In this document: positions 771-44,550 of the stretch, piece by piece
Layout: every line of letters starts with the position of its first letter
Numbering within the stretch: position 1 is the stretch's first letter
Source of the DNA: Halomonas sp. LR3S48
GTDB taxonomy: Bacteria > Pseudomonadota > Gammaproteobacteria > Pseudomonadales > Halomonadaceae
DNA: 64,000 nt
NCBI RefSeq assembly: GCF_025725665.1
Contig: NZ_CP107009.1
Span: 186,001-250,000, forward strand
Direction of reading: 5' to 3'
Translations under genes and position numbers: made by a program
The notes under the pieces: generated by a model
What the model was told of the DNA's origin: nothing
Databases searched by the model: none
Seen by the model: only the letters and a program-made list of their open reading frames with translations

Positions 771-1702
771 TGGGCGTCTCCTCGTTCACGGGGCGCGAGC
801 CCGGCGGAGAAATGGGTGTACAGGTGTTCCAGCGTGGGCGGCAGCAGTTCGACATCCTCGACACCGGGCTGGGCGGTGAGGTGGCGCAGCACGGCGAGCT
901 TGGCGTCGGCCGGTACCGAGAGCGACACCTCGTGGCCGTTGAGCGGACGCGCCTGGATGCGCGAGTCGTTCCAGGGCCGCTGCCAGTCGGCGCCTTCCAG
1001 CCGGCCGCGGGCGCGAATGGTCGTCGGCAGTGCGGCTTCGGCACGCAGGGTCTCGAGGCTGCCCAGTGCCAGGCGGCGGCCCCCGCCGAGGATCAGCGCG
1101 CGGTCGATGTAGGGCTCCACCCCCGGCAGCACGTGGGAGGAGAGCAGCACCGTGCAGCCGCGCTCGCGCAGGCTGCGCACCGTCTCGTAGAAATCTCGGG
1201 TGGCGGCGGGGTCGAGCCCGGTAGTGGGTTCGTCGAGCAGCAGCAGGCGCGGCTCGCCGAGCAGCGCCTGGGCCAGGCCGAGGCGCTGGCGCATGCCCTT
1301 GGAGTAGGTCTTCACGCGGCGTTTGGCCGCCGCGCCCAGGCCGACCTGCTCAAGCAGGTCGGCCACCTGGCGGCGGTCGACGCGCTTGAGCCGGGCAAAG
1401 AAATCCAGCACCTCGCGGCCGCTGAGCTGTTCGTAGAAGCTGACGTTCTCGGGCAGGTAGCCCAAGCGTCGGCGCAGCGTCTCGGCATGGGCACCGTCGG
1501 GGGCGCCGCCGAGTACGGAAATCGAACCCGCGCTGGGCGAGAGCAGCCCCAGGATCAGCTTCATGGTGGTGGTCTTGCCGGCGCCGTTATGGCCGAGCAG
1601 GGCGAGCACCTCGCCCTCGCTGACCGTGAGGTCGAGGGCGTCGAGGCGCACCACGTCGCCGTCGCGCCGGGTCACGCCGTGGAATTCGATCACCGCGGTC
1701 AT
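767..1702 (-). CDS. nosF: NosF, ABC ATPase of the nitrous oxide reductase maturation complex
   Basis: A 311-residue ABC ATPase starting MTAVIEFHGVTRRDG. It shows Walker A GHNGAGKTTT, the signature YSKGMRQRLGLAQAL, Walker B LLLLDEPTTGLD and the H-loop SSH. The 120-residue tail after the ATPase core is typical of NosF. It powers the NosDFY complex that supplies sulfur to the CuZ cluster of NosZ. The start at 1702 is chosen because its ATG overlaps the nosD stop by ATGA; a longer open frame exists upstream but would run back through nosD. The nosY start overlaps its stop in the same manner. Confidence 0.95.
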   Translation of the reverse strand: MTAVIEFHGVTRRDGDVVRLDALDLTVSEGEVLALLGHNGAGKTTTMKLILGLLSPSAGSISVLGGAPDGAHAETLRRRLGYLPENVSFYEQLSGREVLDFFARLKRVDRRQVADLLEQVGLGAAAKRRVKTYSKGMRQRLGLAQALLGEPRLLLLDEPTTGLDPAATRDFYETVRSLRERGCTVLLSSHVLPGVEPYIDRALILGGGRRLALGSLETLRAEAALPTTIRARGRLEGADWQRPWNDSRIQARPLNGHEVSLSVPADAKLAVLRHLTAQPGVEDVELLPPTLEHLYTHFSAGLAPRERGDAQ

Positions 1703-3009
1703 GTGTCGGTGTCTCCGAAGTCGGGTTCTGTCATCAGGGGGGCGCTGTCCTTCACGCCCTGGGGGCGGAAGACGGGGAACTGGCGCTGCACCCAGCGCAG
1801 GGTCAGCACCGCGGGGCTGTGCATCAGCAGCCGCGCGACGGGGTAGCGCCACAGCAGGCGGTCCATGGCGTCGTTGGGCTCGTAGGCCGTGTCGCCGGTA
1901 CCGTCACCGGACAGGTCCCAGCCCAGGTAGTCGCTCCAGTAGTTGCCGCGGCCCTCCTCCGACCACTCCTGGGTGCGCGTGGCGACGTACATCACCTGCT
2001 GGCGGTTGTCGACGAAGGCGTTGCCTACCACCGTGTTGTCCTCGGAACCGGCGGTGAGGTGAATGCCGATGTCGCTGCCGGCCAGGCGGTTGCCCTCGAA
2101 GCGGTTGAACTGGGCGTTGTAGACGAACAGCGCCTTGCCTTCGGCACCGCTGACCATACCCTCGCCACTGGCGTCCAGCGCCTGGCGTATGCCGCTGATG
2201 CGATTGCCGCGCAGCGTGGAGTAGGTGATGTTGTTCATCAGGATGCCGTAGTTGAGGTCGCCCTCGGAGCGGTTGTTCACTACCGTCAGGTGGCGTGACT
2301 GCATCAGCGCATAGCCGGTGCGGGTGTTGCGGGTCAGGTTCTCTTCCACGCGGTTGTCGTGGGCGTACATGTAGTGCACGCCATAGCGCAGGTCCTGCAT
2401 CCGGTTGCCGCGCAGCAGGCTCTGGCTGCTGCTGTCGATGTAGATGCCGTCGCGCACCTCGCGGATGTCGTTGCCCTCGATCCGCGCGTCGCGCACGTTG
2501 TACAGGTGGATGCCGTTGCCACGATCCTGCGAGCGCAGCGAGGTGTCGCCGCGAATGACGTTGTCGAGCACTTCCACCTCATTGGCAGCATCGAGCCGGA
2601 TGCCGAAGCCAGGACCCTCGAGGCGCGAACGGCGAATGACGCTGCCGGTAGCGGTGCGTTCCACCAGGATGCCGGTATCCATGGCGGTGAGATCGCGGCC
2701 CCAGTTCTCGACGGTGAGGCCGTCGATCACGCTAGCGGGGGCGACGACGATCACGCCATGGCCGCTGCCGCCGGCATCGATCACGGCGCCGGGCTCGGCC
2801 TCCACGCTCAGCGTGCGGTCGAGGGTGAGCGGGCCGGGATAGCGGCCCGCGGGCAGCAGCAGGCGATCGCCGTCACTGGCCCGTTCGACCAGCGGCTGCA
2901 GCGATTCGCCCGGGCTGGCCTGCCAATCGGCGGCCAGCGCCCCGCCCGGCATCATCAGCCAGGCGGTCAGAATCAGGATCAGGACGCCGAGGATCGGTCG
3001 TCGGGTCAT
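1699..3009 (-). CDS. nosD: NosD, periplasmic beta-helix maturation protein
   Basis: A 436-residue protein with a Sec signal peptide (MTRRPILGVLILILTAWLMM, cleavage probably after GGALA). The mature part consists of right-handed beta-helix (CASH-type) repeats rich in N, G and R, such as GNGIHLYN, DGIYIDSSS and YGILMNN. The NYWSDYLGWD block near the C-terminus is characteristic of NosD. NosD works in the periplasm with the NosFY transporter to build the CuZ site of nitrous oxide reductase. It lies 48 bp downstream of nosZ and overlaps nosF by 4 bp, forming one operon. Confidence 0.95.
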   Translation of the reverse strand: MTRRPILGVLILILTAWLMMPGGALAADWQASPGESLQPLVERASDGDRLLLPAGRYPGPLTLDRTLSVEAEPGAVIDAGGSGHGVIVVAPASVIDGLTVENWGRDLTAMDTGILVERTATGSVIRRSRLEGPGFGIRLDAANEVEVLDNVIRGDTSLRSQDRGNGIHLYNVRDARIEGNDIREVRDGIYIDSSSQSLLRGNRMQDLRYGVHYMYAHDNRVEENLTRNTRTGYALMQSRHLTVVNNRSEGDLNYGILMNNITYSTLRGNRISGIRQALDASGEGMVSGAEGKALFVYNAQFNRFEGNRLAGSDIGIHLTAGSEDNTVVGNAFVDNRQQVMYVATRTQEWSEEGRGNYWSDYLGWDLSGDGTGDTAYEPNDAMDRLLWRYPVARLLMHSPAVLTLRWVQRQFPVFRPQGVKDSAPLMTEPDFGDTDT

Positions 3010-3057
3010 ACGTTTCTCCGAAAACTCGGGGCCGGGCTTGCCCGGCCCCGAGGGCTA

Positions 3058-4932
3058 TCAGGCCTTCTCGACCAGCATGCGGCCGGTCATTTCCATGTGC
3101 ATGGCGTGACAGAACCAGTTGCAGTAGTACCAGAACACCCCGGGCTTATCGGCGACGAAGGTGACGCTGGCGGTCTGCTGCGGGCCGACTTCCATCTGCG
3201 CGCCGTGGTTGACCATGCAGAAACCGTGGGTCAGGTCCTCCACCCGGTCGAGGTTGGTGACCACCACGGTGACTTCGTCACCCTGCTTGACCTTGAACTC
3301 GGTCAGGCCGAACGTCGGCGCGACGGAGGTCATGTAGACGCGCACCTTGTTGCCATCGCGAATCACCTTGTTCTCGCGCTCGACATCGACGCCATCGGCC
3401 TGGGCCATGGCGATGGTATCGGCGAAGAAGGGGTCGTCACGCCGCCATACGCGCAGCGGGTCGATCTGGTCGGCGCGCACCAGGATGCAGTCGTGCGGCT
3501 CGGCGTAGGTCGGGCCGTCGTGCACCAGCTTCATCTCGTCGCCACTGATGTCGATCAACTGGTCGTTCTCGGGGCGCAGCGGGCCCACCGGCAGGAAGCG
3601 GTCCTTGGAGAACTTGCACAGCACCACCAGCCACTTGCCGTCGGCATCGCGCGACTCGGTGAGGCTGGCGTGGTTGTGGCCGGGCTGGTAGTGCACGTCC
3701 AGCTTCTGGCGGATGTAGTTCACCTCTTCGCCGTTGTAGTGGCGAATGGCGTCCTCGATGTTCCACTTGGCCACCTGGCTGTCGATGAACAGCGTGGTGT
3801 AGGCATACCCGCGGCCGTCGAAGGTGGTGTGAAGCGGCCCCAGGCCCAGCTCGGGCTCGCCGACCACGGTATCGCGCGGCTCGATGGCGTCGTCGAACAG
3901 CTGCGGCAGCCTGTCGATCGCGATGATGGTCACGGTCGGCGACAGCTTGCCGTTGGCCATGAAGTACTTGCCGTCCGGCGAGGTGTTCAGGCCGTGCGGG
4001 TTCTTGGGCACCGGGATGTAGCGGGTCAACTGGGAGCCCTTGCGGCCGTCGAGTACCGGCACCGGGGAGTCTCCCAGGGTCTCGTACTGGCCGGCGGCGA
4101 CGGCGGCTTCGATCGCGTCGACGTCGAACACCACGACCCAGTCACGCTCGGCGCGCATGGTGTCGGCGAGCGTCACGCCCTTCTCGGAGTTGTAGCAGGT
4201 CGCAGCGACGAAGCGGCCGGTGTAGTCGGCGTCGGTGTTGTCGAGGTTGCCATCGACGATCACCTGCCAGGCCACGTCCATGCTCTCCGCGTCCACCGCG
4301 TTGAACATGGTCCAGTAATTCTCGGGATTCTCCAGGTCGCGGCCGTCGTTGACCTGCGGAATCGGCATCTCGGCGTTGCAGAACACGTACTTGGTGTGCG
4401 GCACCTTCTGCAGGCGCAGGCCGTGGATCGCCTGGACGTTGGGGATGGTGGTGATCTTGTCCGTCTTCATGATGTCGAGACGGATGCGTGCCACGCGGGT
4501 ATTGGCCTTGTCATTGATGAACAGGTACTTGCCGTCGTAGTGGCCGTCGGTCATCGAGACGTGGGGGTGGTGGCTGTCGCCGTTGAGGAAGCGTGCGGAC
4601 TCGCCCAGGATGCGCTTGGACTCGTTGCTGATGCCCCAACCGGTGGCACTGTCCGCGTTGAACACCGGAATGCGCATCAGCTCGCGCATGGAGGGCACGC
4701 CCAGCACGCGCACCTCGCCTGAATGACCGCCGCTCCAGAAACCGTAGTATTCGTCGAGCTCGCCCGGCGCCACGCTGCCTTCGGCGGCGCCGGCGGCCTG
4801 GGCCTGGCGGCTAGCCATCAGCGCGCTGGCGCCGAAGCCGCTGGCCAGGCCGGCCCCGGCAACGCCGGTTACCGCGCTGTTGCGCAGGAAGTGCCGGCGA
4901 CCGAGATTCTCGATCTGCTTCTTGTCACTCAT
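3058..4932 (-). CDS. nosZ: NosZ, nitrous oxide reductase
   Basis: A 624-residue multicopper enzyme that reduces N2O to N2 in the periplasm, the last step of denitrification. The N-terminus carries a twin-arginine signal (GRRHFLRN, residues 11-18) followed by a hydrophobic stretch ending near SRQAQAAG, which makes it a clade I, Tat-exported NosZ. The N-terminal propeller contains the histidine-rich CuZ ligands (for example [26 protein letters not shown]). The C-terminal cupredoxin domain ends with the CuA motif [16 protein letters not shown]. An AGAGG Shine-Dalgarno lies about 7 nt before the ATG. Only 3 bp separate it from the nosR stop. Confidence 0.98.
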
Positions 4933-8289: not shown

Positions 8290-8303
8290 TTGATAAGCAT
8301 CAA
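8290..8303 (-). promoter_or_regulatory. Consensus FNR box overlapping the nsrR promoter
   Basis: TTGAT-AAGC-ATCAA is a perfect FNR-type palindrome. It ends only about 19 bp before the nsrR start codon, so a class II activator position would put the transcription start inside the gene. Its location therefore suits repression, or an overlap with the nsrR start site, better than activation. An overlapping AGCAT-N10-ATGCT inverted repeat could be an NsrR autoregulatory site; that part is speculative. Confidence 0.65.
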
Positions 8304-12327: not shown

Positions 12328-12386
12328 GGTGAAAAGCACCCCGGTCAAGTAAGGTTGTTTTTACCTTTTAAGAGGTGATTTTCACC
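12328..12386. promoter_or_regulatory. Three NorR enhancer sites
   Basis: Three 13-bp elements of the form GGT-N7-ACC occur at 12328-12340, 12353-12365 and 12374-12386. Each contains the GT-(N7)-AC core established for NorR. Their centres are 25 and 21 bp apart. The last ends directly at the norR ATG, so NorR could also repress its own synthesis from it. E. coli norVW likewise needs three such sites. Confidence 0.82.
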
Positions 12387-13910
12387 ATGCTGGACCACTC
12401 GCTGCTTGCCGACCTGACCACCGAACTGCCCAGCGCCGTGCGCCTGCAGCGCCTGGTGCGCACCCTGCGCGAGGGTTTTCGCTGTGGTGCAGTGTGCCTT
12501 CTTCGCCTGCAGGACGAAGTCCTGGCCCCGGTGGCGGTGGACGGCCTGGTCCGCGAAGCGTTGGGCCGCCGTTTCGAGGTGGCCCGCCATCCACGCCTGG
12601 CCACTATCCTCACCAGCCGGCGCTCGACCCTGTTCCCACCCGATTCGTCCCTGCCCGATCCCTACGATGGCCTGATCGAGCAGCATCCCGGCGAGCCGCT
12701 CCACGTCCATGACTGCATGGGCATCAGCCTGCACGTGGAAGGCGAGCCCTGGGGCGTGCTGACGCTGGATGCGTTGCTGGCGGGGACCTTCGACGACGAG
12801 GACCGTCTCGCGCTGGAGCGCTATGCGTTACTCGCCGAGGCGGCGGTACGCATGACACGTCTGGAGCAGGAAGTGCGCGCGCTGCGCGTGGCGCGCCATG
12901 ACGCCGTGGTCCAGGTGGAATCCGGCGATGGGGGCGAGATTCTCGGCCATAGCGCGGTGCTCCAGCGGCTGCTGCGGGAGCTCGACGTGGTGGCCGAGTC
13001 CGACCTGCCGGTGCTGCTCAGCGGCGAGACCGGCGTAGGCAAGGAGCTGTTTGCCCGTCGCCTGCACCAGCGCTCGCCGCGCCGTGAGCAGCCGCTGGTT
13101 CAGGTCAACTGCGCGGCGCTGCCGGAGACGCTGGCAGAGAGCGAACTGTTCGGTCACGTCAAGGGAGCCTTCTCGGGAGCCACGGCCGACCGGGCGGGGC
13201 GCTTCGAAGCCGCCGACGGTGGCACCCTGTTCCTCGATGAGGTGGGCGAATTGCCGTTGATCGTCCAGGCCAAACTGCTGCGCGCACTGCAGAACGGCGA
13301 GATCCAGCGCCTGGGCGAGGACACCCCGCGTCAGGTCGACGTGCGTATCATCGCCGCCACCAACCGGCACCTGGCCGACGGTGTGCGTGACGGTCACTTC
13401 CGCGCTGACCTCTACCACCGGTTGTCGGTCTATCCGGTGGCGATTCCACCGCTGCGCGAGCGCGACAGCGACGTGCTGGTACTCGCCGGCCACTTTCTCG
13501 AGATCAACCGAACGCGGCTGGGCGTGCGCAGCCTGCGCCTCGCGCCTGAGGCCGAGGCGGCACTGCTCGGCTACACCTGGCCGGGAAACGTCCGCGAGCT
13601 GGAGCACGTCATCAGCCGCGCAGCGATCAAGGCGCTGGGCCACGGCGCGCAGCGCGACGACATCGTCACCCTCGAGCCGGAGTGGCTCGATCTGCCCATC
13701 GGCCGGCAACCGGTTTTCGTGTCGGCGCCCGACGGGCCGCAGGAGACCGAGGCGGGGCCGGCGTTAAAAACGCAGGTGGCCGAGGCGCAGCGTCATGCCA
13801 TTCGCCGGGCCCTGGCGGCCTGCGACGGCAACTGGGCGAAGGCCGCCCGGCAGCTCGACGTCGATCCCAGCAACCTGCACAAGCTGGCACGTCGGTTGGG
13901 AATAAAGTAG
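12387..13910 (+). CDS. norR: NorR, NO-responsive sigma-54 activator
   Basis: A 507-residue enhancer-binding protein. Residues 1-180 form a GAF-type sensor in which NorR binds NO at a non-heme iron. The AAA+ domain has Walker A GETGVGKE near residue 212, the sigma-54 loop at 260-265 and Walker [14 protein letters not shown]. The C-terminus ends in a Fis-type helix-turn-helix ([28 protein letters not shown], shown here only as a region). The sigma-54 loop reads GAFSGA instead of the usual GAFTGA. The ATG at 12387 has AGAGGT upstream; an in-frame GTG at 12375 lies inside a NorR site. The only sigma-54 promoter seen nearby belongs to the divergent dnrN. Confidence 0.93.
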
Positions 13911-17445: not shown

Positions 17446-19557
17446 ATGAGTACTTCCACCAAGGCCGTCAAGACATCCCTCGAGGTGCCTATGCAAGTGC
17501 CCTCACGCGATATCTGGGACTCCAAGTATCGTCTCAAGGATCGTCACGGACGCCCCGTCGACAAGGACGTGGCAGCGACCTGGGAGCGCGTCGCGCGTGC
17601 CCTGGCCGCGGTGGAGGGCGAGCGTGCCGAGGAGTGGCTGCCCAAGTTCCGCTGGGCGCTGGAGCACGGCGCCATTCCCGCCGGGCGCATCATGTCCAAC
17701 GCCGGTGCCGAGGACTACAAGCCGGCGGTCAGCCTGATCAACTGCACCGTCTCGCGCACCATCCGCGACTCCATGCACGACATCCTCTCCTCGGTGGTGG
17801 ATGCCGGCATGACGCTCAAGGCGGGCTGTGGCATCGGCTACGAGTTCTCGACCTTGCGCCACAAGGGCGCCTTCGTGTTCGGCGCCGGTGCCGGCACCAA
17901 CGGCCCGCTGGCGTTCATGGATATCTACGACAAGATGTGCTTCACGGTGGCCTCGGCGGGCGGTCGCCGCGGTGCGCAGATGGGCACCTTCGACGTCGGC
18001 CACCCCGACGTGCGCAGCTTCATCGAGGCCAAGCGTGAAGCCGGCCGGCTGCGGCAGTTCAACCTCTCGCTGCTGATCACCGACGAGTTCATGGAAGCGG
18101 TGAAGAACGACGCCGACTGGCCGCTGGCCTTCCCGCTGCACGCCGGCGAGAAGGATGACGTCAAGCCCGAGGACCTGATCTACCGCGACTGGCCGGTGGT
18201 CGAGGAGGGCTATAGCGTCGACGCCGAGGGACGCGTGGCCTGTCGCATCGTCGAGGTGATCAAGGCGCGCGAGCTGTGGGACACCATCATGAGCTCGACG
18301 TACGACTTCGCCGAGCCGGGGTTCATCCTGATCGATCAGGTCAACCGCATGAACAACAACTGGTTCTGCGAAGAGATCCGTGCCACCAACCCCTGCGGCG
18401 AGCAGCCCCTGCCGCCGGAAGGCGCCTGCCTGCTCGGCTCGGTCAATCTGACCCGCTTCGTCATCGACCCCTTCGGCAAGAAGCCGCGTTTCGACTGGGA
18501 GCGCTACCGCCAGGTGGTGGCGATCTTTACCCGCATGCTCGACAACGTGGTCGAGATCAGCAGCCTGCCGCTCGAGGGCCAGCGCCGCGAGATCGAGGCC
18601 AAGCGTCGTCACGGCATGGGCTTCCTCGGCCTCGGTTCGACCTTGACCATGCTCAAGATCCCCTACGGTTCGCCCGAGTCACTCGCCTTCACCGAGGAGG
18701 TGAGCCGCAACCTGGCAATCGAGGGCTGGAAGCAGGCACTGGAACTTTCCCGCGAGAAGGGCATGGCGCCGGTTCTGGCAGAGGATTTCGAGATCACGCC
18801 GAAGATGATGCGCGAGCGTCCCGAGCTGGCGAAGGACGGTTACGAGATCGGTGACAAGGTGCCCGGGCGCATCCTGCACGCGCGCTACAGCCGCTACATG
18901 CAGAAAGTCGCCGAGGTGGAGCCGGAGCTGGTCGCGGCACTGGCAGAGCACGGTGCGCGTTTCACCCACCACAGCTCCATCGCGCCGACCGGTACCATCT
19001 CGCTGTCGCTGGGTAACAACGCCTCCAACGGCATCGAGCCGTCGTTCTCGCACCGCTACTTTCGCAACGTGATCCAGTCGGGCAAGAAGACCAAGGAGCA
19101 GGTGGAGGTGGTCTCCTTCGAGCTCGCCGCCTACCGCCACTTCATCGCCAGCGACGCGGTGGAGAGCGACCTGCCCGACTACTTCATCACCGCCGATTCG
19201 GTGACCCCGACGCAGCATGTGGCGGTGCAGGCGGCGGCCCAGGCCTGGGTCGACTCGGCGATCTCCAAGACGGTCAACGTGCCCACCGAGTTCCCCTTCG
19301 AGCAGTTCAAGGACCTCTACCTGGATGCCTACCAGAGCAAGCTCAAGGGCTGCACCACCTTCCGCTTCAACCCGGAAGCGTTCCAGGGCGTGCTGGTGCG
19401 CGAGGACGACCTCAAGAACACCACCTATGTGTTCGAGCTGGAGAACGGCGAGACGCTGGAGCTTGCCGGCGACGAGAAGGTGGTCTACGACGGCGAAGAG
19501 CACAACGCGGCGAACCTGTATGACGCGCTGAAGGAAGGCACCTATGGGAAGTGGTAA
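17446..19557 (+). CDS. nrdJ: NrdJa, catalytic subunit of split adenosylcobalamin-dependent (class II) RNR
   Basis: A 703-residue ribonucleotide reductase large subunit with the class I/II ten-stranded barrel. Key motifs are NPCGEQPLPPEGACLLGSVNL (a region near residue 325 holding the N-x-C-x-E catalytic triad), the first active-site cysteine in SLINCTVSRT near residue 100, and APTGTISLSLGNNASNGIEPSFSHRY near residue 520. It reduces ribonucleotides with an adenosylcobalamin radical and works with or without oxygen. The C-terminal cysteine-rich reductant-interaction part is not in this polypeptide but in nrdJb downstream, as in Pseudomonas aeruginosa NrdJab. A 189-bp gap with a structured repeat separates the two halves. 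Confidence 0.93.
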   Translation: MSTSTKAVKTSLEVPMQVPSRDIWDSKYRLKDRHGRPVDKDVAATWERVARALAAVEGERAEEWLPKFRWALEHGAIPAGRIMSNAGAEDYKPAVSLINCTVSRTIRDSMHDILSSVVDAGMTLKAGCGIGYEFSTLRHKGAFVFGAGAGTNGPLAFMDIYDKMCFTVASAGGRRGAQMGTFDVGHPDVRSFIEAKREAGRLRQFNLSLLITDEFMEAVKNDADWPLAFPLHAGEKDDVKPEDLIYRDWPVVEEGYSVDAEGRVACRIVEVIKARELWDTIMSSTYDFAEPGFILIDQVNRMNNNWFCEEIRATNPCGEQPLPPEGACLLGSVNLTRFVIDPFGKKPRFDWERYRQVVAIFTRMLDNVVEISSLPLEGQRREIEAKRRHGMGFLGLGSTLTMLKIPYGSPESLAFTEEVSRNLAIEGWKQALELSREKGMAPVLAEDFEITPKMMRERPELAKDGYEIGDKVPGRILHARYSRYMQKVAEVEPELVAALAEHGARFTHHSSIAPTGTISLSLGNNASNGIEPSFSHRYFRNVIQSGKKTKEQVEVVSFELAAYRHFIASDAVESDLPDYFITADSVTPTQHVAVQAAAQAWVDSAISKTVNVPTEFPFEQFKDLYLDAYQSKLKGCTTFRFNPEAFQGVLVREDDLKNTTYVFELENGETLELAGDEKVVYDGEEHNAANLYDALKEGTYGKW

Positions 19558-28768: not shown

Positions 28769-29518
28769 TCAATCGCGTAGCTCGATGCGTTCGAAATGAG
28801 GGGAAAGGCGCCTGACCAGCCCGGCGAGCATCGCCCGCGGCGGCGCGTTCTCCACCGGCTGACAGTAGGCCGGGTCGAGGCACTGGCGGGTGCGCGCCAC
28901 CTGAATGGCGTAGCGGCGCACGCCGCAGTCGGCCAGGGTCAGCGCCAGGCGCTCCACGTCGGCCAGGTCGAAGTCGCGCCAGTGCACGGTAGTGCGGCAT
29001 TCGAAAGCCACGCCGCTGTCGAGCAGCGCCATCAGGCTCTGGCTGTTGCGCTGCCAGATGCCCGGGCGCCCGCAGATGCGGTCGAAGTCGCGCCCGCGAC
29101 CCTTCACGTCGAGCCCCACCCAGTCGAGGTTCGGCAGCAGGCGAGAGAGCCGCGCCGGGTAGGGACCGGCGGTGTGCAATCCGACCTTGAAACCCATCGC
29201 CTTCGCCTCGGCGACGGCGGACGGCAAGGCATTGTGCAGGGTCGGCTCGCCACCGCTGAACACCACCGCTTCGAGCAGCCCCCGGCGTTCCTCGAGAAAC
29301 TCCCGTACCGCCTGCCACTCCCGCTCGTCGCCGCGGCGCGGCGGCATCATGTGGCCATTGTGGCAGTAGCCGCAGCGCAACGGGCAGCCCTGCAGGAACA
29401 CCACGCAGGCCAGATGATCGGGGTAGTCCAGGGTGGTCATCTGGGTCATGCCGGCGATGGGTAGCCGGATACCGTCCAAGGGCGCGAAGGCGGGCGGGTC
29501 GAGGTCGGTGGCGATCAT
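28769..29518 (-). CDS. nrdG: NrdG, radical SAM activase of the class III RNR
   Basis: A 249-residue radical SAM protein with C45-x3-C49-x2-C52 (CPLRCGYCHNG), the GGEPTL SAM-binding motif near residue 90 and NLDWVGLDVKG near residue 130. It belongs to the longer NrdG subtype found with short NrdD proteins. It would install the glycyl radical on the RNR. Here the target glycine is not in NrdD but in the 54-residue protein encoded 58 bp upstream, so NrdG should act on that small protein. GGAG precedes the ATG. A GC hairpin separates the two genes. Confidence 0.9.
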   Translation of the reverse strand: MIATDLDPPAFAPLDGIRLPIAGMTQMTTLDYPDHLACVVFLQGCPLRCGYCHNGHMMPPRRGDEREWQAVREFLEERRGLLEAVVFSGGEPTLHNALPSAVAEAKAMGFKVGLHTAGPYPARLSRLLPNLDWVGLDVKGRGRDFDRICGRPGIWQRNSQSLMALLDSGVAFECRTTVHWRDFDLADVERLALTLADCGVRRYAIQVARTRQCLDPAYCQPVENAPPRAMLAGLVRRLSPHFERIELRD

Positions 29519-29576: not shown

Positions 29577-29741
29577 TCAGGACGTCAGGGCGGCGGCCCG
29601 CTCGGTGAAATGACGTCGCTCGCGGTGCTCGGAACGCTTGCCGACGTTGAACTGGCTGACCGGGCGGTGGTAGCCCATCACGCGGGTCCACACCTCGCAG
29701 CGCTGGCGTTGTTCGGTGGGCAGGGTGTCGATGTTCGTCAT
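29577..29741 (-). CDS. Stand-alone glycyl-radical domain of class III RNR (split NrdD)
   Basis: A 54-residue gene. It starts MTNIDTLPTEQRQRCEVW and continues TRVMGYHRPVSQFNVGKRSEH, ending HFTERAAALTS. R-V-x-G-Y followed by RPV and FN-x-GK is the C-terminal glycyl-radical loop of NrdD, with G23 as the expected radical site. AAGGAG lies 8 nt before the ATG. The upstream nrdD gene ends right after its zinc-ribbon cysteines without any RVxGY motif, so the two polypeptides together make one class III RNR. A 64-nt AT-richer spacer with stop codons separates them, which speaks against a sequencing frameshift. The small protein resembles the spare radical domain GrcA in concept only. Confidence 0.88.
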   Translation of the reverse strand: MTNIDTLPTEQRQRCEVWTRVMGYHRPVSQFNVGKRSEHRERRHFTERAAALTS

Positions 29742-29805
29742 CTTCTTGGCTCCTTCCAGTGGTGGGTAAAACAGCGGATTGAAAAGCAGTAAGTTGCAAA
29801 AACGC

Positions 29806-31536
29806 TCAGGCCGGTACCGCTGCGGCGCGTCTTGTCAGCAGTGCCTCGTCGCACTTCGGGCAGAACTCGTGTTCGCCGGCCAGGTAGCCGTGCACCGGGC
29901 AGATCGAGAAGGTCGGCGTCACGGTGATGTAGGGCAGGCGGAAGCGCGACAATGCGGTGTGCACCAGCTTGCGGCAGGCGGTGGCGCTGGAGAGCCGCTC
30001 GCGCATGTAGAGGTGCAGCACGGTGCCGCCGGTATAGCGGGTCTGCAGCGGGTCCTGGTGGATCAGCGCCTCGAAAGGATCGTCGGTATGCCCCACCGGC
30101 AGCTGGCTCGAGTTGGTGTAGTAGGGCGCCTCCGACGTACCGGCCTGCAGAATGCCGGGGAAGCGCTCGGCGTCGGCGCGGGCGAAGCGATAGGTGGTGC
30201 CCTCCGCCGGGGTCGCCTCCAGGTTGTAGAGGTGGCCGGTCTCGGCCTGGAACGCTTGCATCCGGCTGCGAACGTGGTCGAGCACCTCCAGGGCGAGCTG
30301 GCGTCCCTCGGGGGCGGTGATGTCGTAGCGGTCGTCGCAGAAGTTGCGCACCATCTCGTTGAGCCCGTTCACGCCCAGCGTGGAGAAGTGGTTGCGCAGG
30401 GTGCCGAGGTAGCGCTGGGTGTAGGGGTAGAGCCCATCGTCCATCCACTGCTGGATACGCTCGCGCTTGAGCTCCAGGCTGTCGCGGCCCAGCGCCAGCA
30501 GGCGGTCGAGCTCGGTGAACAGGCCCGCCCGGTCGCCGGCGAAGCGATGGCCCAGCCGCGCGCAGTTGAGCGTCACCACGCCCAGCGAGCCGGTCTGCTC
30601 GGCGCTGCCGAACAGGCCGTTGCCGCGCTTGAGCAGCTCGGTGAGGTCGAGCTGCAGGCGGCAGCACATGGAACGCACCATGTGCGGCTCCAGGTCGGAG
30701 TTGAGGAAGTTCTGGAAGTAGGGCAGTCCGTACTTGGCGGTCAGGGCGAACAGCCGCTCGGCGTTGTCACTCTCCCAGTCGAAATCCGCGGTGATGTTGT
30801 AGGTGGGAATCGGGAAGGTGAATACCCGCCCCTGGCGGTCGCCGGCCTCCATCACCTCCAGGTAGGCGCGGTTGATCAGGTCCATCTCCGCCTGCAGCTC
30901 GCCGTAGGTGAAGGACTGCTCCTCGCCGCCGACGATCGGCACCTGGTCGCGCAGGTCCGCCGGACATACCCAATCGAAGGTGAGGTTGGTGAAGGGCGTC
31001 TGGCTGCCCCAGCGCGACGGCACGTTGAGGTTGTAGATGAACTCCTGGATCGCCTGCTTCACGGCTGTAAAGTCGAGGGCGTCGCGGCGCACGTAGGGCG
31101 CGAGATAGGTATCGAAGGAACTGAAGGCCTGGGCGCCGGCCCACTCGTTCTGCAGCGTGCCGAGGAAGTTGACCATCTGCCCCAGCGCGCTGGAGAGGTG
31201 GCGCGGCGGGTCGCTCTCGGCGCGCCCGGGCACGCCGTTGAAGCCTTCGATCAGCAGCTGGCGCAGCGACCAGCCGGCGCAGTAGCCGCACAGCATGTCG
31301 AGGTCGTGGATGTGCAGGTCGCCCTCGCGGTGGGCGGCGCCGACCTCAGCCGGGTAGACCTCGTCGAGCCAGTAGTTGGCGATCAGCTTGCCCGAGACGT
31401 TGAGGATCAGCCCACCCAGGGAGTAGCCCTGGTTGGCGTTGGCGTGCACGCGCCAGTCGGCGCGTTCGAGGTATTCGTTGACGGTCGAGGCGACGTCGAT
31501 GCGGCGCGGGCTGGCCTGGCGGGTGGGGGCGTTCAC
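29806..31536 (-). CDS. nrdD: Class III ribonucleoside-triphosphate reductase, main chain lacking the glycyl-radical loop
   Basis: A 576-residue NrdD. It lacks the N-terminal ATP-cone and begins NAPTRQASPRRIDVASTVNEYL. NrdD motifs are GDLHIHDLDML (about 85), SLGVVTLNCARLG (about 310), VRSMCCRLQLDL holding the candidate thiyl cysteine, and YTGGTVLHLYMRE (about 510). The chain ends with the zinc-ribbon-like CPVHGYLAG...CPKCDEALLTRR and then stops at AAAVPA, so the glycyl-radical loop is absent and is supplied by the next gene. The start is a GTG at 31536 with AGGGAG 6 nt upstream; an in-frame upstream ATG would place both NrdR boxes inside the gene. Confidence 0.9.
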   Translation of the reverse strand: MNAPTRQASPRRIDVASTVNEYLERADWRVHANANQGYSLGGLILNVSGKLIANYWLDEVYPAEVGAAHREGDLHIHDLDMLCGYCAGWSLRQLLIEGFNGVPGRAESDPPRHLSSALGQMVNFLGTLQNEWAGAQAFSSFDTYLAPYVRRDALDFTAVKQAIQEFIYNLNVPSRWGSQTPFTNLTFDWVCPADLRDQVPIVGGEEQSFTYGELQAEMDLINRAYLEVMEAGDRQGRVFTFPIPTYNITADFDWESDNAERLFALTAKYGLPYFQNFLNSDLEPHMVRSMCCRLQLDLTELLKRGNGLFGSAEQTGSLGVVTLNCARLGHRFAGDRAGLFTELDRLLALGRDSLELKRERIQQWMDDGLYPYTQRYLGTLRNHFSTLGVNGLNEMVRNFCDDRYDITAPEGRQLALEVLDHVRSRMQAFQAETGHLYNLEATPAEGTTYRFARADAERFPGILQAGTSEAPYYTNSSQLPVGHTDDPFEALIHQDPLQTRYTGGTVLHLYMRERLSSATACRKLVHTALSRFRLPYITVTPTFSICPVHGYLAGEHEFCPKCDEALLTRRAAAVPA

Positions 31537-31724: not shown

Positions 31725-32636
31725 TCAGACGGGCAGCCGGGTGTTGTCCATGCCCGGGCGGCCGTGCCAGTAGCCGTCGCACACCTCGGCCTCGACCAGC
31801 GCCAGCGGGTCGGGGGCAGGCAGCTCGCCGCGGCGCGCGGCATCGAAGGCGGCGACCACCTCGGCCATGTCCTCGGCCCGCGGGCTCAGCCGCGCTACCG
31901 CCACGCCCATCGCGGCCATGTCACCCACTTCGTAGCGCAGATCCTGGCAGGCCCCCGAGAGGGTCTGGATGCCGTTGAGGGTGAACACCTCCTTCGACTC
32001 CTGCGAGCGCAGCGCCAGGCCCTCGGGGTACTTCTGGCAGACGAACTGGCAGCGGTCCTTGGGCTTCTGGTGACGCCGTGCGGTGAAGCAGCGCGACGAC
32101 CAGGCCAGCGGCAGGTGGCCGTAGGCGAATACCTCGCAGGGCCGGTCGAGACCCTCGGCGGCGCAGTCGGCGAGCAGCCGGGCGAGATCGTCGCGCGACA
32201 TCTCCACCGGCGCCTGCCAGCGGCGCATGCCGGCGCGGGCCATCACGCCGATGGCCGCCGGGTTATAGAGGTTGAGCGCGGCCCCGGCAACGAAGGGCAG
32301 GCCGGCGGCGGCCAGGCGCTGCAGTGCACTCTGGTCGTTGGCCTCGACGGTGAACTCGCCGTTGTCGCACAGCTTGCGCAGGTCGCGCAGGTCCGCCTCG
32401 GATTCGATCAGGGTCTGGCTCGCCAGCACCACCTGCTTGCCGCTCTGGGCCAGCTCGCGGCCGATGCCGAGCCAGTCGTCGAGCTTCATGTCGCGCCGTC
32501 GCGAGCAGACGGACTCGCCCAGATAGACGCTCTCCACTGGCCAGTCGGCGGCCTCGCGATAGAAGTCGGCGTAGCGCTCGCGGGTCCAGTAGAACAGCAC
32601 CGGGCCCAGGGCGAGCTGCAGGGAATCGGATGACAT
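31725..32636 (-). CDS. ubiV: UbiV, iron-sulfur U32 protein for oxygen-independent ubiquinone synthesis
   Basis: A 303-residue peptidase U32-family protein. Cysteines at 44, 183, 196 and 200 (GESVCSRR and SRCFTARRHQKPKDRCQFVC) match the four [4Fe-4S] ligands of UbiV in spacing. The barrel has GAALNLYNPAAIG and FAYGHLPLAWSSRC. UbiV and UbiU form a heterodimer that, with UbiT, hydroxylates ubiquinone precursors anaerobically, probably using prephenate as oxygen donor. The start is 8 bp after the ubiU stop; the two genes form one operon. Confidence 0.93.
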   Translation of the reverse strand: MSSDSLQLALGPVLFYWTRERYADFYREAADWPVESVYLGESVCSRRRDMKLDDWLGIGRELAQSGKQVVLASQTLIESEADLRDLRKLCDNGEFTVEANDQSALQRLAAAGLPFVAGAALNLYNPAAIGVMARAGMRRWQAPVEMSRDDLARLLADCAAEGLDRPCEVFAYGHLPLAWSSRCFTARRHQKPKDRCQFVCQKYPEGLALRSQESKEVFTLNGIQTLSGACQDLRYEVGDMAAMGVAVARLSPRAEDMAEVVAAFDAARRGELPAPDPLALVEAEVCDGYWHGRPGMDNTRLPV

Positions 32637-32644
32637 ACGGACTC

Positions 32645-33640
32645 CTATTTCCAGCGGCGCTCATAGGCGCCCAGGGTGGTAGTGGCGCCCTCGGAGACCT
32701 CGCCCAGGCCGGCCATCCAGGCGGGGTCGGGGTGGAAGCGCTCGGGCGCTCGCTCCAGGCGATCCAGCGCCTGGCGCCAGATGCCGGCCACCTTCGACAC
32801 GTAGGCCGGGCTGCGCTGGCGGCCCTCGATCTTCACCGCACTGATGCCCAGCTCGCGCAGCTCCGGCAGCAGCTCCAGCGTATTGAGGCTGGTGGGCTCC
32901 TCGATGGCGTGGTAGGTCTCGCCGCCGACTTCGAAGCGCCCCTTGCACAGGGTGGGGTAGCCGGCGCGCTCGCCGTCGCCGTAGCGATCGATCAGCACGC
33001 CGTTCAAGCGCGACTCCAACCCCTGCGGCGTCTCTTCCCAGCGTACGTGGGCCGCCGGCGAGCAGACCCCGCGGGTGTTGGGCGACTCCCCGGTCAGGTA
33101 CGACGAGAGGTAGCAGCGCCCCTCGGCCATGATGCACAGGCTGCCGAAGGCGAACACTTCGAGTTCCACCGGGCTCTGCTTGGCCAGATCGCGAACCTGG
33201 GTGATGGAGAGTACGCGTGGGAGTACGGCGCGCTTGATGCCGAACTGGTCGTGGTAGAAGCGCAGGGCCTCGTGGCTGGTGGCCGAGCCCTGCACCGAGA
33301 GGTGGCGGGCGAGGTCCGGGTAGCGCCGGGCGGCGTAGTCGAGCAGGCCCATGTCGGCCATGATCAGGGCGTCGACGCCGAGCTCGGCGGCCTGGTCCAC
33401 GGCGCGGGTCCACTGGGCCCAGCCGTCGGGCTGCGGGTAGGTGTTGATGGCGCAGAACACCCGCTTGCCGCGGGCATGGGCGTAGTCGATGCCTTCACGG
33501 GCGCGGCTGTCGGTGAAGTTGAGGCCGGCGAACTGCCGGGCGTTGGTGGCGTTCTGGAAGCCGAAGTAGACGGCATCGGCGCCTTCATCCACCGCCCGCT
33601 TCAGGGCCGGCAGGTTGCCGGCCGGGCAGACGAGCTCCAT
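32645..33640 (-). CDS. ubiU: UbiU, iron-sulfur U32 protein for oxygen-independent ubiquinone synthesis
   Basis: A 331-residue U32 protein starting MELVCPAGNLPALKRAVDEGADAVYFG. Cysteines fall at residues 169, 176, 193 and 232 (SLCIMAEGRCYLSSYLTGESPNTRGVC and PTLCKGRF), the same positions as the E. coli UbiU cluster ligands. It pairs with UbiV. A FNR/DNR-like site at 33702-33715 with a well-placed -10 drives ubiUV. Ubiquinone supplied this way would feed the electron chain to the nitrogen oxide reductases when oxygen is absent. Confidence 0.94.
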   Translation of the reverse strand: MELVCPAGNLPALKRAVDEGADAVYFGFQNATNARQFAGLNFTDSRAREGIDYAHARGKRVFCAINTYPQPDGWAQWTRAVDQAAELGVDALIMADMGLLDYAARRYPDLARHLSVQGSATSHEALRFYHDQFGIKRAVLPRVLSITQVRDLAKQSPVELEVFAFGSLCIMAEGRCYLSSYLTGESPNTRGVCSPAAHVRWEETPQGLESRLNGVLIDRYGDGERAGYPTLCKGRFEVGGETYHAIEEPTSLNTLELLPELRELGISAVKIEGRQRSPAYVSKVAGIWRQALDRLERAPERFHPDPAWMAGLGEVSEGATTTLGAYERRWK

Positions 33641-33701: not shown

Positions 33702-33715
33702 TTGATGAGGGTCAT
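33702..33715 (-). promoter_or_regulatory. FNR/DNR-type site of the ubiUV operon
   Basis: On the plus strand TTGAT-GAGG-GTCAT; on the minus strand ATGAC-CCTC-ATCAA. Centred 41.5 bp before a start near 33667, it has TAGCAT (33674-33679, minus strand) exactly in the -10 position. Confidence 0.7.
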
Positions 33716-38915: not shown

Positions 38916-39435
38916 GGCCGAAGGCGATGATCGTGTAGGTGGCGGACATGACCATGATGTCGTCTTCTTCGCGCTCGGCGAGCGCCTGCAGGCCGTGGTA
39001 GACCAGACCGCATGACAGCATCAGCGCCAACAGCACGCCGCAGACGATGAAAACCATGTCGGGAACGAACAAGGTCAGCGAGGAGAACCACAGCGGCAGC
39101 GGCACCATGGCGGCCAGGAAGTAGGCATCGCGATGGCCGAGGCGCAGGCGGTGGGCGTCCGCCACGCCGTGGATCAGCCAGCCCATCACCAGGAAGGTGA
39201 GTAGCTCGGCGGTGAACAGCGCCGGAGCGATGATGGCCCAGGGTCGTTCGGCCAGGCCCGGCAGCAGGGCATCGCCGTGGTGATGGATGGCGTAGTACAG
39301 CATCACCGGCGGCAGCAGCGACAGCGGCAGCACCACGCGCAGGATCAGCGCATTGAGGGAAGGCCGGCTCTGGCGTAGCTGCTGCCAACCGCCTTCATGT
39401 GTGAAGGGCAGTTGCAGGATATGATTGATATCCAT
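38872..39435 (-). CDS. Yip1/DUF1282-like membrane protein
   Basis: A 187-residue protein starting MDINHILQLPFTHEGGWQQL with five hydrophobic helices, resembling the Yip1 (DUF1282) family of bacterial membrane proteins of unknown role. The start ATG at 39435 is embedded in a perfect FNR palindrome. Its 3' end overlaps the 3' end of the RND gene by 44 bp in antisense, so mRNA interference is possible. Upstream, 39441-39500 contains inverted repeats (GGCTCTCGC with GCGAGAGCC, GGAAAA with TTTTCC) that could terminate the nirCF transcript. Confidence 0.72.
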   Translation of the reverse strand: MDINHILQLPFTHEGGWQQLRQSRPSLNALILRVVLPLSLLPPVMLYYAIHHHGDALLPGLAERPWAIIAPALFTAELLTFLVMGWLIHGVADAHRLRLGHRDAYFLAAMVPLPLWFSSLTLFVPDMVFIVCGVLLALMLSCGLVYHGLQALAEREEDDIMVMSATYTIIAFGLMAWGVLLALVWAL

Positions 39436-39438
39436 CAA
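39425..39438. promoter_or_regulatory. Perfect FNR-type palindrome on the Yip1-like start codon
   Basis: TTGAT-ATCC-ATCAA is a full FNR consensus, but it includes the start codon of the gene at 39435. It cannot activate this start and would instead repress or be fortuitous. Confidence 0.45.
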
Positions 39439-42786: not shown

Positions 42787-43309
42787 GCCGGCGCCCGCTA
42801 CAGGCCTCGTGGATGGCCTGGATGCGCTCGACCGCGACATCGTCCTGGCCACCCAGGCCGGCCTGCCGCTGGTGCCGGACCCCTGGAGCGCGGTGGGCAA
42901 ACCGCTTGGCCTTGCCGGAAACGAGGTGCGCGCCCGCATGCAGCGCATGATCGACAGCGGCGTGATTCGTCGTATCGCCGCGGTACCCAACCACTACCGC
43001 CTGGGCTTCGTGGCCAACGGCATGACCGTATGGGACGTCGACGACGCCCAAGTCGAGCATCTGGGCCGCGAATTGGCCGGGATCCCTGGCGTGAGCCACT
43101 GCTACCGGCGCCCGCGACACCTGCCCGAATGGCCCTACAACCTGTTCGTCATGCTCCACGGGCGCAGCCAGGGCGAAGTGGAGCAGCAGGCCGAGGCGCT
43201 GCGCGAGCGGCTCGGCGATGCCTGCCGCGACCATCGCATCCTGTACAGCTCACGCATTCTCAAGAAGACCGGCCTGCGGCTTGCCCGCTCGTCCGGCCGG
43301 CCGCGCTGA
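42761..43309 (+). CDS. nirH: NirH, siroheme decarboxylase subunit
   Basis: A 182-residue Lrp-like protein with a proline-rich N-terminus (STCPPEPAPATG), LDRDIVLATQAGLPLVPDPW and CYRRPRHLPEWPYNLFVMLHG near residue 112. It is the partner of NirG in siroheme decarboxylation. nirJ begins 29 bp downstream. Confidence 0.87.
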   Translation: MSASTCPPEPAPATGLVDGLDALDRDIVLATQAGLPLVPDPWSAVGKPLGLAGNEVRARMQRMIDSGVIRRIAAVPNHYRLGFVANGMTVWDVDDAQVEHLGRELAGIPGVSHCYRRPRHLPEWPYNLFVMLHGRSQGEVEQQAEALRERLGDACRDHRILYSSRILKKTGLRLARSSGRPR

Positions 43310-43338
43310 GGCTGGCGCCGCGCCCAGAGGAGGTTTCC

Positions 43339-44550
43339 ATGTTCCGTGTCACCCGCTACGTCAAGTCGCTGCTCGACCCCGCACCTTCCGGTCATGAAAC
43401 GCTGGGGCCGGCCCGCAAGCCCCCCGGCCCGGTGGTGATCTGGAACCTGATCCGGCGCTGCAACCTGACCTGCAAGCACTGCTACACGGTGTCGGCGGAC
43501 ATCGACTTCAAGGGCGAGCTTTCCACCGAGGAGGTCTTTACCGTCCTCGACGACCTCAAGCGGTTTCGGGTGCCGGCGCTGATCCTCTCCGGCGGCGAGC
43601 CGTTGATGCGACCCGATATCTTCGAGATATCCCGGCGTGCCAAGCAGCTCGGCATCTACACCGGTCTCTCCACCAACGGCACCCTGATCGACGAGAGCAA
43701 CATCGCGCGCATCGCCGAGTGCGGCTACGACTACGTGGGCATCAGCATCGATGGCCTGGAAGCGACGCATGACGAGTTCCGCCGCCGCCAGGGGGCATTT
43801 CGCGAATCGATGCACGCCGTCAAGCTGTGCAAGCAGCACGGCATCAAGGTGGGGCTGCGCTTCACCCTGACCCAGCAGAACTACGAGCAGCTCGACGCCA
43901 TCCTGGCGCTGATCGATGAGCACGACGTCGACAAGTTCTACCTCTCGCACCTCAACTACGGCGGGCGCGGCCACCGCCACCGCAAGCAGGACGCCTGGTA
44001 CCAGATGACCCGTGACGCCATGACCCGGCTGTTCGACCACTGCCGGGCCGAGCTGGAACGCGGCGTCGAGCGCGAGTACGTCACCGGCAACAACGACGCC
44101 GACGGCCCCTTCCTGCTGATGTGGGCCCGCGAGCACTTCCCCGACCGCGCCGATGCGCTGGAACGGCGCCTGATCGACTGGGGCGGCAACGCCTCGGGGG
44201 AGTACATCGCCAATATCGACAACCTGGGCACGGTGCACCCGGACACCTTCTGGTGGGATCACGACCTCGGCAGCGTGCGCAACCGTCCGTTCTCGGAGAT
44301 ATGGCGCGACAGCCAGGACGAGCTGATGCAGGGCTTCCGCCAGCGCCCCAGGCCGCTCAAGGGCCGTTGTGCGGAGTGCCGCTTTCTCTCCATCTGCAAC
44401 GGCAACACCCGCGTGCGGGCATGGAAGGTCACCGGCGACCCGTGGGAGGAGGACCCCGGCTGCTACCTCAGCAACGAAGAGATCGGCGTCGAAGCAGGCC
44501 GGCAGCGTCGCGTGGCCGCACCCTGCGCCATCCAGGCCATTGAGCTCTGA
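43339..44550 (+). CDS. nirJ: NirJ, radical SAM heme d1 synthase step
   Basis: A 403-residue radical SAM protein with C41-x3-C45-x2-C48 (CNLTCKHCYT), ILSGGEPLMRPD and a C-terminal SPASM-like cysteine cluster (GRCAECRFLSICNGN and CYLS). NirJ removes two propionates from didecarboxysiroheme. The start at 43339 has AGAGGAGG directly upstream; the longer frame before it lies inside nirH. Confidence 0.93.
   Translation: MFRVTRYVKSLLDPAPSGHETLGPARKPPGPVVIWNLIRRCNLTCKHCYTVSADIDFKGELSTEEVFTVLDDLKRFRVPALILSGGEPLMRPDIFEISRRAKQLGIYTGLSTNGTLIDESNIARIAECGYDYVGISIDGLEATHDEFRRRQGAFRESMHAVKLCKQHGIKVGLRFTLTQQNYEQLDAILALIDEHDVDKFYLSHLNYGGRGHRHRKQDAWYQMTRDAMTRLFDHCRAELERGVEREYVTGNNDADGPFLLMWAREHFPDRADALERRLIDWGGNASGEYIANIDNLGTVHPDTFWWDHDLGSVRNRPFSEIWRDSQDELMQGFRQRPRPLKGRCAECRFLSICNGNTRVRAWKVTGDPWEEDPGCYLSNEEIGVEAGRQRRVAAPCAIQAIEL

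Follow-up and report, generated by a model that had tools for sequence, protein, structure and literature searches.

Class III ribonucleotide reductase (RNR) of Halomonas sp. LR3S48 is encoded in two pieces, a large NrdD chain that ends after its zinc ribbon and a separate 54-residue protein possessing the glycyl-radical loop. We propose, at a probability of roughly 0.86, that the two polypeptides constitute a functional enzyme whose radical subunit would be replaceable, and that loose copies of the small gene, in bacteria and in phages, probably act as spares in the manner of GrcA. The separate, conserved genes are widespread and of old standing among bacteria, and copies of the small gene without a barrel gene are carried in viral DNA.

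The 64,000-nucleotide stretch of DNA analysed here (the window) belongs to a closed genome of one contig (4.69 Mb, 99.84% complete). On the minus strand the gene order is ubiU, ubiV, large nrdD, small nrdD, nrdG, with the following features:

32645-33640, minus strand: ubiU (NCBIfam UbiU, 567.9 bits, above cut-off)
31725-32636, minus strand: ubiV (NCBIfam UbiV, 376.6 bits, above cut-off)
29806-31536, minus strand: large nrdD, NrdD catalytic barrel and zinc ribbon, 576 aa, GTG start
30661..30666, minus strand: finger-loop cysteines C291-C292 (MCCR, residues 290-293), predicted thiyl-radical site, invariant in 21 large chains
29851..29901, minus strand: putative zinc-ribbon ligands C546, H549, C559 and C562 (CPVHGY...CPKC) on the large chain, all four invariant in 21 aligned large chains
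29750..29755, minus strand: the small gene's ribosome-binding site (AAGGAG), 8 nt ahead of the ATG
29577-29741, minus strand: small nrdD, 54-aa stand-alone glycyl-radical loop protein, ATG start
29673..29675, minus strand: codon of Gly23, predicted radical site (RVM-G-Y), Gly in every distinct core compared (97 of 97 bacterial, 59 of 59 viral)
28769-29518, minus strand: nrdG, radical-SAM activase (NCBIfam NrdG2, 194 bits, cut-off 131)

The hallmarks of a class III RNR, namely the NRDD barrel, the finger-loop cysteine motif, the radical loop (in its separate gene) and the NrdG activase, are all present at this locus. A sequence-only reading of this DNA had proposed that the NrdD chain stops after its CPKC zinc ribbon, and that the radical loop lies on a 54-aa gene with its own AAGGAG, 64 nt downstream and before nrdG. 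Both proposals hold. The C-terminus of the large chain (...ICPVHGYLAGEHEFCPKCDEALLTRRAAAVPA) has 14 residues beyond CPKC, and its match to Pfam NRDD (profile 2-531 of 562, E 1.9e-170) stops at 531, the glycyl-radical domain being absent from the chain's own C-terminus. The small protein (MTNIDTLPTEQRQRCEVWTRVMGYHRPVSQFNVGKRSEHRERRHFTERAAALTS) matches the same profile at 531-562 (E 3.7e-8, above the curated cut-off), and the two chains together tile Pfam NRDD (2-531 + 531-562). The frames of the two genes differ (relative frame 1), and the gene that follows is the one matched by NrdG2. A Pfam profile search of the whole 4.69-Mb genome found no NRDD match beyond these two genes, which removes a full-length NrdD elsewhere as an explanation for the split.

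Structure models, of which two rest on shallow alignments of 21 and 23 rows (mean pLDDT 67 and 71), confirm the large-chain fold. In the model of a one-chain relative the radical loop is of low confidence (block-mean pLDDT 29-58, residues 591-630); we therefore make no claim of docking from models. Excerpts of PMC9669993 give MCCR as one of two class III finger-loop motifs. A domain search found no ATP-cone match on the large chain, and NCBIfam NF006126 matches it only from position 92; the Cupriavidus necator H16 relative has a Pfam ATP-cone at 15-103. Side observations concern inserts in other large chains. Two genomes have an intein-like insert within the barrel, about 310 aa long in the first (L258 in G174) and somewhat less in the second (L259 in G420), and a phage record with a split NrdD (L265 in G827) has a small intein-like insert between both finger-loop cysteines, at the active site.

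The only Pfam match of the small protein at E<=0.001 is NRDD, with no homology to the C-terminus of pyruvate formate-lyase (PFL), and a PDB search with it gave no match at E<=1. Twenty-one columns are invariant across 13 small proteins from gamma-, beta- and alphaproteobacteria and Campylobacterota, and the bacterial cores have a median dN/dS of 0.19, indicating purifying selection. Relatives of about 30-95 aa number 1578 at E<=0.01, of which 120 were listed, contig-end fragments possibly among them.

The genes ubiU and ubiV, upstream of large nrdD on the same strand, serve oxygen-independent ubiquinone synthesis. NosD, NosZ, NorR and NirJ genes lie at 1699-4932, 12375-13910 and 43030-44550, and the window looks like a denitrification island. 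Matches to the FNR/ANR-type box TTGATN4ATCAA number 29 against 5.8 expected at up to two mismatches and include 8290-8303, 39425-39438 and 33702-33715; one match lies between ubiU and a divergent regulator. A class II NrdJ of 703 aa is encoded at 17446-19557, about 10 kb from nrdDG.

The sequence-only reading had asked how often the two parts are adjacent but separate. Whole-genome surveys with PF13597 were counted by hand from the match listings, most genomes being judged by match coordinates:

58 relatives: 20 with a match (17 split, 2 full-length, 1 truncated where its contig ends)
370 genomes of the class: 39 with a match (30 split, 7 full-length, 2 partial or weak)
397 genomes of the phylum: 66 with a match (19 split, 46 full-length, 1 weak)
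26 genomes of another order: 11 with a match (11 split)
337 genomes of another class: 35 with a match (26 split, 8 full-length, G1143 with the small gene only)
342 genomes of the own order: 53 with a match (30 split, 23 full-length)
12 genomes of one family: 11 split; in G1456, matches to small genes alone

The union comes to about 117 genomes with a split NrdD out of 1407 examined (G000-G792, G843-G1456; genomes recur between surveys), and the non-viral loci contain 114 distinct split pairs. One genome, G1130, has a small gene (MSEVITQRTPCEVFSRSMGFIRP...) that the profile missed. In other sequence collections, carriers include Pseudomonas fluorescens, P. frederiksbergensis, Stutzerimonas stutzeri, Halomonas, Billgrantia, Microbulbifer, Herbaspirillum, Thiobacillus and a Brevundimonas MAG, among others. 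With a Billgrantia-led query, the best 80 of 580 confirmed loci comprised 75 split, 4 one-chain and 1 with the small gene alone. The order large-small-nrdG is also found on plasmids of C. necator H16, Azospira, Bradyrhizobium and Sulfuricurvum, and the small gene is annotated nrdD in the three RefSeq records among them.

The small gene is not always tied to the large one. In G660 it adjoins nrdG at a distance of 9 kb from the large gene, in G1063 it lies with nrdG on another contig, and in G938 and G1085 the sole small gene found is away from the large gene. No large chain was found in the genome survey of G1143, nor within 7 kb of the small gene at L163. Extra small copies accompany a complete pair in G293, G911, G1072 and G927, and G998 has an extra copy of the other, one-chain lineage (EVYSRVTGYFRPVANWNKGK). 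Within the family of 12 genomes (1.8-2.2 Mb), one or more extra copies accompany the pair in 8; G1455 holds three small genes in all and one large gene, and G1456 four small genes, with no large gene found in the genome survey. Some loose copies occupy prophage-like settings, near peptidase M15 (L267, L287, L291), a phage portal (L268) or a YqaJ recombinase (L256); others, inspected by eye, lie between housekeeping genes, for example near argG/argH-like genes in L285. The orphan gene of L256 (from G293) is also near a second PF02867 barrel gene of 952 aa, besides the viral YqaJ recombinase. G1305 combines a one-chain NrdD of another lineage with a prophage-like copy whose N-terminal part is in a different frame. 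Some of the extra copies may be recent duplicates (G927) or decayed (G1305).

Copies of the small gene are also present in phages. An IMG/VR scan with the small-protein alignment confirmed 146 places. Among the best 80, which were retained, 79 lack the NrdD barrel within the flanks examined, which extend up to 4 kb and are in some cases very short. In the whole records behind the 50 longest viral contigs, 49 of 50 contain the loop only, including records of 108 and 212 kb, and the NrdG2 model had no match in 49 of the 50. All of these virus records are classed as linear and may be fragments, so that an absent barrel is no proof for any single virus. Neighbours in eight scanned loci include terminase, portal, tape measure, endolysin or amidase, and replication initiator genes, which identifies the loci as phages. 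The small gene sits in differing genomic places, and clustering of the neighbours revealed no gene that constantly accompanies it. A tblastn search of 50,697 GenBank phage records with the small protein gave a single match, an archaeal virus gene annotated NrdD; the phage copies thus come from IMG/VR contigs.

In 59 distinct viral cores the glycine is present in 59 of 59, as are R15, P16, N21, K24, E27 and R31 of the 36-aa core. Because the pattern scans force TRVMGYH or RQ[RP]CEVW, conservation there says little, and we rely on residues outside the patterns. The median dN/dS of the viral cores is 0.29, compared with 0.19 for the bacterial ones. None of the viral cores is identical to the bacterial cores compared, the median best identity being 0.81 (51 full-length cores). 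In many viral forms the N-terminus is extended by a cysteine-rich stretch (PCAHL...C...C..C..Y), and such a form used as query has 3639 relatives at E<=1e-8, of which 120 were listed. Six proteins, five viral and that of the window, match PHROG 4132, a family of unknown function, at about positions 110-158 of 179.

A second viral family evidently derives from ordinary one-chain NrdD. An IMG/VR scan with the G998 orphan gave 26 loci, 22 without a barrel and 4 with a full-length NrdD. Of the 22 (L295-L314, L319, L320), most encode 41-66 aa from the first start, and the glycine is kept in 22 of 22. L320 is cut by the record end; in L295, as a side observation, the loop continues in frame into a longer, lipoprotein-like sequence. 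Many proteins of this family start near the last zinc-ligand cysteine of the full chain (compare L315). Among 22 whole records, 21 have the loop only (one with two copies; longest record 100 kb) and 1 is full-length. These records, too, are all classed as linear. A RusA resolvase, helicases and a portal protein are among the neighbours in the few loci that were scanned.

How the two chains would work together can be outlined from these features. The large chain, with its 10-stranded barrel, active-site cysteines and zinc ribbon, would fold with the ribbon as a platform, and the small chain would bind there and thread its loop into the barrel. Both the chemistry and the re-fused relatives described below, which have the two parts in one chain, imply docking of the small chain onto its large partner. 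NrdG would place the radical on Gly23, most likely with the small protein bound to, or near, the large chain; the loop would then hand the radical to the finger-loop cysteine and regain it after each turnover. Oxygen is expected to cut the small chain at Gly23. With the loop on a separate chain, a cleaved copy could be exchanged for a fresh one without remaking the 576-residue body, and the loose bacterial extras and phage-borne lone copies would be spare or donor radical parts.

Alternatively, the enzyme could be a plain, permanent two-subunit complex whose small chain is never exchanged, the extra and viral copies being passengers or, for example, inhibitors that bind NrdG or NrdD. We regard this as possible but lean against it. 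Most bacterial genomes have only one small gene beside one large gene, as a fixed subunit would predict, and the role of the viral copies is read from sequence alone. However, the loose extra copies retain the radical-loop motif, the viral copies are constrained (median dN/dS 0.29), and the three small genes of G1455 face one large gene. An inhibitor, moreover, would not need the radical glycine, yet all 59 viral cores keep it. The idea of a replaceable subunit gains support from the loose extra bacterial copies and the stand-alone phage copies. Whether phages exploit such an exchangeable part is, in our estimate, evenly poised: phages of both the split and the one-chain lineages that carry only the loop (mostly 40-90 aa) might re-arm an oxygen-damaged or limiting host enzyme during infection, and some bacteria might keep several loose copies for the same use.

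A different possibility is that the two frames are joined at translation, by programmed frameshift, bypass or stop read-through, into an ordinary NrdD chain. Loci were classified by stop-to-stop translation and by profiles built from both parts (loci L001-L255 and the window). The pieces adjoin in most genomes, and 24 of the 114 distinct pairs share a frame, a single stop separating the parts in some of them (G846, G1272, G1290, G1447, G1347, G997). The remaining pairs are nevertheless in relative frames 1 (53) and 2 (37), and the distance from large stop to small start ranges from -38 to 258 nt (median 32 over the 114 pairs), with a single outlier at -503 that reflects start choice. The small gene starts with ATG in 112 of 114 pairs, and 103 of 114 have a Shine-Dalgarno match of at least 5 bases, where random places in the same loci, tested identically, average 17 (maximum 28). 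Even in the in-frame cases that were read, five with profile matches crossing one stop (G1272, G1290, G1447, G1347, G997) together with G846, a stop closes the large frame and the small frame has an ATG of its own. Joining by any of these routes would not produce all three relative frames, varying gaps, and a conserved start and ribosome site; the small gene is, in addition, sometimes unlinked from the large gene, and we give this explanation very little credence. The same features of the 114 pairs rule out a sequencing error or a frameshift as the source of the split, and the joinable frame that the sequence-only reading had named as a possible undoing of its claim does not exist here, the split recurring in many species. 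A broken pseudogene or sequencing error, with dNTPs supplied by the cell's other RNRs, could appeal to the two further PF02867 barrel genes of this genome (C1:4026545 and the class II NrdJ at 17446-19557) but is scarcely tenable against splits in about 117 genomes, two parts that are near-invariant or under purifying selection, and the identical arrangement in C. necator H16.

The history of the split was examined in a tree of 123 distinct large chains (113 split, 10 one-chain), built by a quick method with SH-aLRT and rooted at the midpoint, which falls among the one-chain forms. The split and one-chain states require 4 changes on this tree, at least 3 of them forced by starred branches, and 0 of 500 shuffles gave a number as low. 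Given the midpoint root, this pattern fits one old split followed by about three later re-fusions, the long branches leaving the details unsure. The re-fused one-chain relatives are L261, Acidiphilium, and Maricaulis with two actinobacteria (the re-fused relatives include Actinomyces); that both parts have re-fused suggests that they function together. A second, separate split was seen at the same domain border in a different NrdD lineage, in two genomes of one genus (G643 and G711; L266, L326). There, the large frame ends after a CPRC element and is followed by one stop, a 60-aa frame with the loop (MGKCNMVKP...RTRRITGYLVGTLDRFNNAKRAEEKDRVKHGCS) and an nrdG-like frame. The stretch between the frames is unlike a normal linker, which makes a simple stop inside a joined chain less likely. 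One metagenomic locus (L156) has a one-chain NrdD with two near-identical tandem radical loops, possibly an assembly artefact.

A natural two-chain form would allow NrdG substrate recognition, the meeting of loop and barrel, and the swapping of cleaved parts to be addressed without protein engineering. The phage copies suggest a role for PHROG 4132 and make testable the idea of spare parts beyond pyruvate formate-lyase. Studies of nrdD in Cupriavidus, or in any Pseudomonas with the split, may have used half an enzyme and left this unstated. For C. necator nrdDG, Siedow et al. in 1999 reportedly described a 76.2-kDa NrdD and possibly a Gly650; the large chain of C. necator H16 has a computed mass of 76.19 kDa and carries at position 650 the glycine of the zinc-ribbon HGY.

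The gene pieces are already in databases, the small gene named nrdD by NCBI, and we found no literature description of the two-chain enzyme: a search covering mostly open papers returned no account of an NrdD whose radical loop is a separate chain, nor of viral loops that stand alone. In the text searched, the word "split" is absent from the RNRdb paper (PMC2795772) and occurs in PMC3019208 only within the name SplitsTree. The P. aeruginosa class III genes are called nrdDG in the searched parts of PMC4860495 and PMC5645315, the former mentioning a split class II enzyme and the latter no split. Excerpts of the Bradyrhizobium plasmid paper (PMC10127595) report class III RNR genes, the split passing unremarked.

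The closest known counterparts each share part of this arrangement. The one-chain NrdD of E. coli, T4, Thermotoga maritima and Prevotella copri resembles it in barrel, MCCR, zinc ribbon, radical-loop sequence and NrdG, but there the loop forms the C-terminal end of the one chain and is treated as inseparable from it (PMC9669993, PMC11226230, in excerpt), whereas here the cut falls between zinc ribbon and loop. NrdJa/NrdJb, the split class II enzyme of P. aeruginosa, is likewise an RNR in two chains but belongs to another class with another cofactor and is cut at a different position (PMC4860495, PMC9669993, both in part). Phage nrdD genes in pieces, with introns, homing endonucleases or the fragments of phiAS4, are interrupted genes of single phages, and the sections of PMC3653736 seen mention no stand-alone radical loop. 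A further likeness is to E. coli GrcA/YfiD and phage T4 Y06I, small stand-alone glycyl-radical proteins that complete a large enzyme, as the 54-aa protein would do here. Y06I is a phage-encoded PFL spare part, YfiD activation required the partner enzyme, and PFL is the sole enzyme with validated spare parts, which other enzymes may also have (PMC8683613, in part). GrcA/YfiD and Y06I are part of the PFL system, where they repair an enzyme with a glycine of its own, whereas the small chain of the split NrdD is a piece of NrdD and would be the normal and only radical site of a large chain without the loop. The comparison with GrcA is apt as a working likeness, not as homology. Finally, T4 carries whole nrdDG genes, whereas the diverse phages described here carry the radical loop only.
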